The position numbers and the translations under genes are program-made. From Bacillota bacterium (GTDB taxonomy: Bacteria; Bacillota; Clostridia; Tissierellales; Peptoniphilaceae), in the NCBI GenBank assembly GCA_029003555.1, contig JAQYCE010000060.1:1-49778 (forward strand): 49,778 nt of DNA, read 5' to 3'. This document shows positions 33,531 through 38,706 of the stretch, in pieces. The first letter of the stretch is position 1. Each line of letters opens with the position of its first letter. The notes under the pieces are model-generated. The model was not told the DNA's origin, searched no databases, and saw nothing but the letters and a program-made list of their open reading frames with translations.

Positions 33531-34082
33531 ATGAAGGAGAAGGAGATCAAGATCATCGGTCATGATAAGGAAGCTCTGATTCAAGCCCTTCTAAACAAAG
33601 GGGCGATTGACCAGGGGGAAGAAGACCAGACCAATATCCGGATTTCTTCCTCCAACCATCCGGTTCCCGACCATGCTTATTTGCGGCTGAGAAAGGTGGT
33701 CAAAAGGGGGGAGACCCTCCCCCTGGAATTCACCTATAAAGAAAGATTGGAGGGGTACGGGGCCCGAATCAACGAAGAGACCACGGTTCATATTCAGCCG
33801 GAAGAAGGAGACCTTCTACTCAGTCTCCTCGACCACTTGGGCTATGACATCCGAGAGGAAGGCCATAAAATTCGTCACACCTTTCTTTATAAAGACTTCC
33901 GGGTTGAGTTTGACCAATGGGATGCCCAAACCCTCTCTTATCCCTATATTGAAGTTGAAGGGCCCTCGGTAGAAGCCCTGGACCGGTTTTTGAAGGAGTT
34001 TTCCATCCCTTCTTGCCAGGTGACGACCAAATCCATCGGTGAGCTGAGGGAGGAGGAGAGGGAGAAAGGCCCCCGTCCTTAA
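33531..34082 (+). CDS. CYTH-domain protein (class IV adenylate cyclase / ThTPase-like fold)
   Basis: N-terminal EKEIKI, DHAYLRLRKV, LEFTYKERLEG, FRVEFDQW..PYIEVEGP. Confidence 0.82.
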   Translation: MKEKEIKIIGHDKEALIQALLNKGAIDQGEEDQTNIRISSSNHPVPDHAYLRLRKVVKRGETLPLEFTYKERLEGYGARINEETTVHIQPEEGDLLLSLLDHLGYDIREEGHKIRHTFLYKDFRVEFDQWDAQTLSYPYIEVEGPSVEALDRFLKEFSIPSCQVTTKSIGELREEEREKGPRP

Positions 34083-34092
34083 CCGCATTTCA

Positions 34093-34121
34093 TTGACAAG
34101 AAAGCCGGCAAATCCTATAAT
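34093..34121 (+). promoter_or_regulatory. Consensus sigma-A promoter of greA
   Basis: TTGACA-N17-TATAAT, perfect hexamers and spacing. Confidence 0.9.
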
Positions 34122-34127
34122 CGAGCT

Positions 34128-34156
34128 AGCAGGAGTGGACTCCTGCTCTATTTTTT
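34128..34156 (+). terminator. Terminator-like hairpin in greA leader
   Basis: AGCAGGAGT-GG-ACTCCTGCT-CTA-TTTTTT immediately downstream of the -10. Confidence 0.75.
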
Positions 34157-34168
34157 AAGGAGTATAAC

Positions 34169-34648
34169 ATGGATCAACAAAAAAACATCATTACCCGTCA
34201 GGGCTATGAGGAGCTGAAAAACAAGCTCAACTATCTGAAAACGGTGGAAAGACCTAAGGTGACTGAAAAGATCAAGGTGGCCAGAGGCTTTGGCGACCTG
34301 TCTGAAAATGCGGAATACGATGCGGCCAAAGAAGAGCAGGCCAAATTGGAAGGGGAGATCCAGGAAATTGAAAGCATCCTGGAACGGTCCGAAATCTTCG
34401 ACAAGGATCCCGCCAGCAATACCGGGGAGATTACCTTGGGTTCGGAAGTGGTCGTCTTGGACAAGGAGTTCGATGAGGAGCTGACTATGACCATTAAAGG
34501 GGTCACTGAGGCCAATCCCCGTTCCAATATCATCTCCTTGGAATCCCCCTTGGGTAAGGCCCTCCTGGGTCATCGTGAGGGAGAAACGGTCCTCGTAGAG
34601 GCTCCTGTTGGAAAGATTGAATATAAGATTTTGAAGGTGTTGAGTTAA
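34169..34648 (+). CDS. greA: Transcription elongation factor GreA
   Basis: ITRQGYEELKNKLNYLKTVERPKV, ARGFGDLSENAEYDAAKEEQ motifs. Confidence 0.97.
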   Translation: MDQQKNIITRQGYEELKNKLNYLKTVERPKVTEKIKVARGFGDLSENAEYDAAKEEQAKLEGEIQEIESILERSEIFDKDPASNTGEITLGSEVVVLDKEFDEELTMTIKGVTEANPRSNIISLESPLGKALLGHREGETVLVEAPVGKIEYKILKVLS

Positions 34649-34697
34649 CCGCCCCGTTTCAGCTAGGGGCTAGGATGTTTTTATGAAAGGAGCGGCC

Positions 34698-36614
34698 ATG
34701 GCCAGGAAAGACCTTACCGATAACGAGCTGATCAGGATCCGGATTGATAAGCTCAATCAATTAAAAAAAGAAAACAAAAATCCCCATGAAATCACCAAGT
34801 TTACGGTGACTGCCCACAATGATGACCTGGTGGACCGTTTTGAAGACTATGAGGGGAAAGAAGTCACCATTGCCGGCCGGATCCTGGCCAAAAGGGGACA
34901 TGGTAAGATTTCCTTCATGGATGTCCAGGATGGCTTTGGTAAGATCCAAATCATCGCCCGTTTTAATGAAATGGACGATTTTTCCGTCATTGACCTTTTG
35001 GATATCGGGGACATCATCGGCGTCTCCGGTCTGGTCGTGGAGTCGGACCGGGGGGAGAAATCCATCGCGGCAAAGACCATCACCCTCCTGACCAAGTCCA
35101 TCCTACCTCTCCCGGAAAAATTCCATGGTTTGAAGGATCCGGACCTCCGTTACCGCCAGCGCTATGTTGACCTGGTCATGAATCCGGAAGTCAAAGATGT
35201 CTTCCTCAAGCGGTCGGTCATCATCTCCTCCATTCGTGAATTCCTGGATGGCCGGGGATTCTTGGAGGTAGAAACTCCTATTCTTAACACGATTGTCGGG
35301 GGAGCCAATGCCCGCCCCTTTATCACCCACCACAACAGCCTGAACATCGACATGTACCTCCGGATTGCCAATGAGCTCTATCTTAAACGCCTGATCGTTG
35401 GCGGCTTTGACCGGGTCTATGAGATGGGTCGGATGTTCCGGAATGAGGGCATGGATGCCACCCATAACCCGGAATACACCGCCATGGAGCTCTACCAGGC
35501 CTATACGGACTATGAAGGGATGATGGAGATCACAGAAAATATGATCGCCTATGTCTGTGAAAAGATCCATGGGACGACCAAAATCGACTATCAGGGCGTG
35601 GAAGTGGACTTCAAGCCGCCCTGGAAGCGGATCACCATGACCCAGGCGGTCAAGGAATACGCCGGGATTGATTTTTCCCAGGTCCGTGATGACCAGGAAG
35701 CCAGAGCTCTGGCGGACCGGCATGAGATACCCTATGAAAAAACAGATGGTTGGGGGAAGATCCTCTCCCGCTTCTTTGATGAGTATGCTGAAGATAAGAT
35801 GGTCCAACCGACCTTTGTCTATGAGTATCCGGTAGAGATCTCTCCCTTAGCCAAGCGGTCTCCCCAGGATCCGGAAATGACGGAGCGCTTTGAAGCCTTT
35901 GTCTGCGGTTGGGAAATCGCCAATGCCTTCTCCGAACTCAATGACGCCCAGGACCAGCACCAGCGCTTCCTACACCAGGTGGAGCTCCGGGAGAGCGGGG
36001 ATGATGAGGCGGGCATGATGGATGAAGACTTCATCAACGCCTTGGAGATCGGGCTTCCCCCCACAGGTGGTCTGGGAATCGGGATCGACCGGATGATCAT
36101 GGTCCTGACCAACCAGTCCTCCATTCGTGACGTTCTTCTTTTCCCAACCATGAAGCCTCTGGGGCTGGGAAATGGGGGAAAGAAGGAAGAGGATCCATCA
36201 GAAGGCCTGGATATTCCCTATCTCAAGGCCGAAGACCTTGATTTTTCCAAGGTGCAAATAGAACCTCTCTTTGAAGATATGGTGGACTTTGATACTTTCT
36301 CCAAGATGGACCTCCGTGTTGTCAAGGTCAAGGACTGCCAGGAAGTGCCCAAGAGCAAGAAGCTCCTCCTCTTCCAATTGGATGATGGAAGTCAAGAGGG
36401 AAGGACAATCTTGAGCGGAATCCGGGATAATTATGCCCCAGAGGACCTGGTAGGCAAGACCCTCCTGGCCATCTGCAACATCCCTCCCCGAAAGATGATG
36501 GGGGTGGACTCCGAGGGTATGCTTCTTTCGGCCATTCATGAGGAAGAAGGGGAAGAAAAGCTCCACCTCATCATGTTGGATCCCAGGATCCCGGCAGGTG
36601 CCAAACTCTATTAA
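34698..36614 (+). CDS. lysS: Lysyl-tRNA synthetase (class II) with C-terminal Trbp111/EMAP-II-type tRNA-binding domain
   Basis: LysRS motifs [50 protein letters not shown]; then about 110 aa [34 protein letters not shown]...[11 protein letters not shown]...[19 protein letters not shown]. Confidence 0.95.
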
Positions 36615-37765: not shown

Positions 37766-37838
37766 GCCTTGTTAGCTCAGCTGGTAGAGCGCGCGGCTGT
37801 TAACCGCGTTGTCGTAGGTTCGAGTCCTACACAAGGCG
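37766..37838 (+). tRNA. tRNA-Asn (GTT)
   Basis: Cloverleaf GCCTTGT...ACAAGGC, anticodon loop ctGTTaa, no encoded CCA. Confidence 0.97.
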
Positions 37839-37841
37839 TTT

Positions 37842-37928
37842 GCCGGGGTGGCGGAATTGGCAGACGCAAGGGACTTAAAATCCCTCGATCTGGATAAGAT
37901 CGTACCGGTTCGACCCCGGTCCTCGGCA
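37842..37928 (+). tRNA. tRNA-Leu (TAA)
   Basis: Class II tRNA with long variable arm, anticodon TAA. Confidence 0.96.
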
Positions 37929-37945
37929 TCTGCAGTTCTTAAATG

Positions 37946-38017
37946 CGCGGGGTGGAGAAGAGGTATCTCGTCGGGCTCATAACCCGGAGGCCGCAGGTTC
38001 GAATCCTGCCCCCGCAA
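37946..38017 (+). tRNA. Initiator tRNA-fMet (CAT)
   Basis: C1xA72 mismatch, GGG/CCC anticodon stem pairs, A11:U24. Confidence 0.95.
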
Positions 38018-38051
38018 TCATCTCCGCCACCGAAATTACTTTAATATCTCT

Positions 38052-38125
38052 GGCGGAGTAGCTCAGCTGGCTAGAGCATTCGGTTCATACCCGAAGTGTC
38101 AGGGGTTCAAGTCCCTTCTCCGCTA
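38052..38125 (+). tRNA. Elongator tRNA-Met (CAT)
   Basis: GGCGGAG...CTCCGCTA, anticodon CAT. Confidence 0.92.
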
Positions 38126-38130
38126 TTTAA

Positions 38131-38202
38131 GGCCCTATGGTCAAGCGGTTAAGACATCGCCCTCTCACGGCGGTATCCCGGGTTCGAATCCCGGTAGGGT
38201 CA
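38131..38202 (+). tRNA. tRNA-Glu (CTC)
   Basis: GGCCCTA...TAGGGTC, anticodon loop ctCTCac. Confidence 0.95.
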
Positions 38203-38214
38203 TTGGTCACATTT

Positions 38215-38289
38215 GGCCCGGTAGTTCAGTCGGTTTAGAATGCCAGCCTGTCACGCTGGAGGTCGTGGGTTCGAGTCCCATCCGGGTCG
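38215..38289 (+). tRNA. tRNA-Asp (GTC)
   Basis: GGCCCGG...CCGGGTC G, anticodon loop ctGTCac. Confidence 0.96.
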
Positions 38290-38299
38290 TTTTCAATAA

Positions 38300-38381
38300 G
38301 GGCGAGTACCGAAGTGGCCAAACGGGACGGACTGTAAATCCGTTAGCTTAGCTTTCAGTGGTTCGAATCCGCTCTCGCCCA
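38300..38381 (+). tRNA. tRNA-Tyr (GTA)
   Basis: Class II tRNA, GGGCGAG...CTCGCCC, anticodon GTA. Confidence 0.95.
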
Positions 38382-38390
38382 ATTTAATAT

Positions 38391-38462
38391 GCGGCAGTGG
38401 CTCAGAGGTAGAGCATCGCCTTGCCAAGGCGAGGGTCGCGGGTTCGAATCCCGTCTGCCGCT
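38391..38462 (+). tRNA. tRNA-Gly (GCC)
   Basis: GCGGCAG...CTGCCGC, anticodon GCC. Confidence 0.96.
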
Positions 38463-38467
38463 TATAC

Positions 38468-38496
38468 TTGAAATAAGTGTCAGTCTATCCTATAAT
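38468..38496 (+). promoter_or_regulatory. Internal promoter in tRNA array
   Basis: TTGAAA-N17-TATAAT in the 80-nt spacer between tRNA-Gly(GCC) and tRNA-Gly(TCC). Confidence 0.75.
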
Positions 38497-38542
38497 GTAA
38501 CAAGGCTAGGCCACCACTTACAAAGCAGTCTCTTCCGCCTAT

Positions 38543-38613
38543 GCGGGTGTAGCTCAGTGGTAGAGCTCCAGCCTTCCAAGCTGGCTACGAGGGTTCGATT
38601 CCCTTCACCCGCT
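38543..38613 (+). tRNA. tRNA-Gly (TCC)
   Basis: GCGGGTG...CACCCGC, anticodon TCC. Confidence 0.96.
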
Positions 38614-38632
38614 TGTTTAGAAAAATTGATAT

Positions 38633-38706
38633 GTGCCATTAGCTCAGCTGGATAGAGCGTCTGGCTACGGACCAGAAGGCCTGGGGTTCGAATCCTCAAT
38701 GGCACG
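38633..38706 (+). tRNA. tRNA-Arg (ACG)
   Basis: GTGCCAT...ATGGCAC, anticodon ACG. Confidence 0.96.

Follow-up and report, generated by a model that had tools for sequence, protein, structure and literature searches.

The greA locus in Kallipyga

The window analysed here, which is the whole 49,778-nt contig JAQYCE010000060.1, is part of a 1.33-Mb Kallipyga genome whose nearest named relatives are K. massiliensis and K. gabonensis (GreA identity of 99 and 96 per cent). On one strand it carries a CYTH-domain gene, greA with its promoter and leader, and lysS (Table 1); greA codes for a rescue factor of RNA polymerase. A strong promoter was looked for in the 34-base gap between greA and lysS and none was found, and the two genes are probably carried on one transcript. 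Likewise, no terminator was found between the CYTH-domain gene and the greA promoter. The greA–lysS gap itself holds a stem, GCCCCGTTTCAGCTAGGGGC then TAGGATGTTTTTATG (34651–34670), which is present in K. massiliensis and missing from K. gabonensis, and ten tRNA genes form an array further downstream (37766–38706).

Table 1 Features of the greA region and of a second promoter–hairpin unit in Kallipyga (window positions, unless a locus is given)
Feature	Position	Strand	Basis and remarks
CYTH-domain gene	33531..34082	+	Open reading frames, domain match; stop 10 bases before the -35 box
Sigma-A promoter of greA, TTGACA-N17-TATAAT	34093..34121	+	-35 TTGACA 34093–34098, spacer 17, -10 TATAAT 34116–34121; 12/12 match; kept in both other Kallipyga genomes
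Terminator-like hairpin AGCAGGAG-UGGA-CUCCUGCU	34128..34147	+	Fold; invariant in 3 species; first base coincides with predicted +1
U-tract CUAUUUUUU	34148..34156	+	Predicted 3′ end of a ~28–30-nt RNA; U-run retained in relatives
Shine–Dalgarno (SD) sequence AAGGAG of greA	34157..34162	+	Complementary to hairpin 3′ arm (ACUCCU)
greA, 159 aa	34169..34648	+	ATG at 34169; GreA by PF03449 + PF01272
lysS	34683..36614	+	34 bases 3′ of greA stop
Y-family polymerase promoter–hairpin	L095 (G000:C53:8517-8545), L205, L249	- (L095)	Adjoins SD

A consensus promoter opens into a hairpin

The promoter sequence and position given in the initial annotation were correct, and its estimate of the transcription start (about 34127–34129) agrees with A34128, the start predicted from the usual promoter spacing. 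This is the sole site matching the consensus at all 12 positions between 31 and 37 kb and one of only four across the 1.33-Mb genome, the other three being located upstream of the genes for ribosomal proteins L34 and L32 (read from their first codons) and of a Y-family polymerase gene.

The 9-bp perfect hairpin noted earlier at this start exists as an exact inverted repeat, AGCAGGAGT-GG-ACTCCTGCT (9+2+9), but a 2-base loop cannot close, and the stem in the RNA is therefore 8 bp long and capped by a UGGA tetraloop. At -12.6 kcal/mol, this fold is more stable than that of any of 200 shuffled versions of the 30-nt RNA. A U-run after the hairpin and an SD just beyond it had also been described; both are present, but CUA (34148–34150) separates the stem from the six U residues (34151–34156) that run up to the SD. 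Because of this separation the hairpin is a borderline terminator by the classical d'Aubenton Carafa score, which in our coding ranges from -20.9 to +8.1 depending on the stem boundary, with -0.6 for the full 20-base stem; summing T positions alone gives -10.9. Most other intergenic terminators of the window have longer stems joined directly to the U-run, next to which the greA hairpin looks weaker. If it terminates at all, it is probably leaky, which fits its position ahead of the housekeeping gene lysS, as a terminator there would need to leak. The hairpin is not a dispersed repeat, since no further copies were found at up to three mismatches in three Kallipyga genomes.

Conservation of the leader

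Within Kallipyga, 34 of the 35 bases from TATAAT to AAGGAG are invariant in three genomes, compared with just 12 of 58 four-fold sites of greA in the same genomes. At the greA four-fold rate, the binomial probability of such invariance is approximately 1e-22, a value that is better taken to mean 'strongly constrained' than as precise. The UGGA loop and the CUA spacer are invariant as well, which exceeds what pairing alone would need. Because the leader is nearly invariant and no pair varies, covariation is absent inside the genus.

To the family level, greA leaders were surveyed in 130 genomes of Peptoniphilaceae by an automatic rule (promoter matching at least 9 of 12 positions; stem of at least 5 pairs and at most -4 kcal/mol; U-rich tail), with the start codons of the relatives' greA genes set by a simple rule. 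A hairpin with a U-run lies 3′ of the promoter in 48 of 94 promoter-bearing leaders, against 0.74 expected from dinucleotide shuffles. As the number of genomes per genus is unequal, we also counted by genus, which gave 17 of 32 against 0.28 expected; this is the safer figure, because the shuffles leave relatedness within a genus in place. Genera g7 and g17 are additionally positive under the other (terminator) score. About half of the genera with a greA promoter are without hairpin and U-run, and no hairpin was found in genera in which greA sits behind an upstream open frame and has no promoter (g24 above all).

The stems themselves differ: GCAGGAG/CUCCUGC in g1, which is Kallipyga, GCAGGU/ACCUGC in g23, GGACCCG/CGGGUCC in g3, GCGAAAG/CUUUCGC in g18 and g31, AGGCG/CGCCU in g13 and g22, and GCAGGC/GCCUGC in g59. 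A GCAGG core is common to g1, g35, g23 and g59, and the pair next to it is A-U in g1, U-A in g23 and C-G in g59. The initial annotation had named two points for comparison with relatives, the order of promoter, hairpin and ribosome-binding site and compensatory changes. The order is retained in the 17 genera, with differing stems; a varied pair is seen across g1, g23 and g59, and none inside Kallipyga. Alignments of the leaders made with MAFFT were left out of the pair counts, because they misplace stems of differing spacing.

The distance of the stem from the start varies too, from +1 to about +35 across genera. By predicted start, the stem stands at the 5′ end in Kallipyga and in g23 (within a few bases of +1) and not in most other genera, where it begins at +7 to +35 with the U-run still attached. 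The common element is therefore a stem with a U-run and not a 5′-terminal stem. When 118 genomes of the class were searched for the minimal, AGCAGG-type leader pattern, the window itself was the sole match. Among more distant Clostridia, hairpin and U-run follow the promoter in 2 of 13 cases at the order level and in 3 of 27, which makes the arrangement mainly a family feature.

Two other sequence blocks were observed in greA leaders. Leaders of g5, g8, g13 and g22 (L167, L156, L162, L120 and others) share a block like TTAGACTTTTA in the interval between start site and terminator, which may be a second element in the family's longer greA leaders. In Oscillospiraceae (L052, L054, L056, L057, L062, L063, L067, L075, L078, L081 and L085), a consensus promoter is followed by a block resembling CCCATTTCTTTATTATAATGTAT and then by a G+C-rich stem without terminator form.

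Specificity among strong promoters

Specificity was assessed in the first 80 bases after promoters matching at least 11 of 12 positions in the three Kallipyga genomes (n = 80). A stem with a U-run follows the greA promoter in all three genomes and none of the 77 other strong promoters. Across the loci fetched from relatives, 46 of 78 greA promoters have hairpin and U-run against 1 of 35 other promoters, and this lone positive lies inside a greA leader, further upstream.

Two further structures behind strong Kallipyga promoters were seen. A perfect or near-perfect promoter of the Y-family DNA polymerase gene (415 aa) runs into a long hairpin at +1, TTCTCATAAACAGGAAG-TTCAT-CTTCTTGTTTATGAGAA, which has paired arm changes in K. 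gabonensis and no U-run, and which is an operator or an RNA structure. In all three genomes (L192, L227 and L257), TTAGCACTC-N9-GAGTGATAA directly 3′ of a strong promoter resembles a CIRCE operator.

A probable leaky terminator ahead of greA and lysS

The analysis establishes the sequence and the fold, and that the order of promoter, hairpin, U-run and SD is conserved. We consider it probable that hairpin and U-tract act as an intrinsic terminator, leaky and close to the promoter, by which transcription of greA and lysS is set. In the course of events that we infer, polymerase would start at about A34128, the first 20 bases would fold on leaving the enzyme, and polymerase would slow on reaching the U-tract, around +24 to +29, so that either an RNA of about 29 nt would be released or transcription would read through into greA and lysS. 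As it is located after the greA promoter, the hairpin acts on greA's own RNA; this earlier claim is now well supported, the order being kept with differing stems in relatives. The mutually exclusive antiterminator of classical attenuators is missing here, because, with the stem starting at +1, nothing is transcribed before it that could form one, and the sole alternative pairing that we found, with the SD, lies downstream of the release point. Any read-through would therefore either be constant or depend on polymerase, its speed and its factors (GreA, NusA, NusG). That stem and U-run are kept while stem sequence and distance from +1 vary argues for termination over a protective 5′ stem or a protein operator.

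The main rival is a 5′-stabilizing hairpin. Firmicutes mRNAs are known to carry such hairpins as stems at their very 5′ ends, immediately upstream of the SD, and the greA stem of Kallipyga, which begins at the predicted +1, resembles them in both respects; it would block 5′-end-dependent decay of the greA–lysS mRNA, with the U-run serving as a ribosome-friendly stretch. The Y-family polymerase promoter, which likewise feeds a +1 hairpin by the SD, there without a U-run, and the U-rich sequence before the SD in relatives that have no hairpin (g20) are consistent with this reading. Against it, the greA stem carries a U-run and in most relatives is not 5′-terminal, the U-run moving with the stem to its more distant positions, and the combination of hairpin and U-run is far commoner than in dinucleotide-matched shuffled leaders. 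We regard stabilization as unlikely.

Much less probable is that the hairpin terminates the upstream CYTH-domain gene and merely overlaps the greA start. That gene is on the same strand, stops 46 bases short of the hairpin and has no other terminator, and the hairpin would act on its transcripts as well; but the hairpin lies 3′ of the greA promoter, so that greA would be affected too, and several g22 genomes retain the downstream terminator while having a separate one upstream of the greA promoter. Least probable is a pyrC-like start-site switch, in which starts within the 5′ arm would free ACUCCU to pair with AGGAGU of the SD and full-length starts would keep the SD open. The six-pair complementarity is retained in three Kallipyga species, and an RNA without the 5′ arm, and only such an RNA, has the SD paired in its fold (-7.4 kcal/mol). 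However, g23 and g35, whose stems are related, lack the complementarity, and this leader is not known to have heterogeneous start sites.

Comparison with known greA leaders

The greA leader of E. coli is described as having an intrinsic terminator and giving short RNAs, GraL (Potrykus 2010, cited in PMC2965389; Dylewski 2019, PMC6829880). GreA raises GraL termination in vivo, in cis and through its catalytic function, but not in vitro; 18–19 nt precede the terminator, and the response is weaker when these are scrambled or the stem arms exchanged, so that the full effect requires both the 18 nt and the arm sequences (PMC6829880). Self-limitation by E. coli GreA requires the leader in cis and probably an accessory factor (PMC6829880). 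The Kallipyga leader shares with GraL a terminator between the greA promoter and the SD (here by sequence and fold, with a borderline score), the expectation of short RNAs and a cis effect on greA. It differs in that GraL has RNA ahead of its terminator, whereas the Kallipyga hairpin begins at the predicted +1; as the 18 nt are missing, feedback by GreA cannot be assumed here by simple analogy.

The greA/rnk family ranks seventh among families with premature terminators, Clostridia included, and a clear antiterminator is reported in each of its clusters (Naville & Gautheret 2010, PMC2965389). Compared by description, those leaders of bacilli and Clostridia are alike in placing a premature terminator before greA in Firmicutes, but they have an antiterminator, which cannot form upstream of the Kallipyga stem. 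The Rfam greA leader model (RF01769) has no match in the Kallipyga genome and, among 14 control genomes, was positive in E. coli only; it is not among the matches at E ≤ 10 in 34000–34400, and scanning the window against Rfam at gathering score, and this interval at E ≤ 10, returned tRNAs and chance matches only. The view that this leader is arranged independently of that of E. coli is supported to the extent that the Rfam model finds nothing here.

The general arrangement has thus been described before, in E. coli and other bacteria, and the Kallipyga leader is a minimal form of it. By analogy with E. coli, GreA feedback would be the likeliest signal for the proposed terminator, a suggestion that we make tentatively. 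It is somewhat more doubtful that the leader works as an attenuator without an RNA sensor, in which the leader RNA would be the terminator and nothing else, read-through would report the state of polymerase and its secondary-channel factors, and GreA would tune how much of itself and of LysS is made. Control at the greA leader would also take in lysyl-tRNA synthetase. A leader reduced to little more than its terminator, of a kind kept in about half of the genera of the family, offers a smaller test object, and it allows one to ask whether a terminator alone can read GreA.
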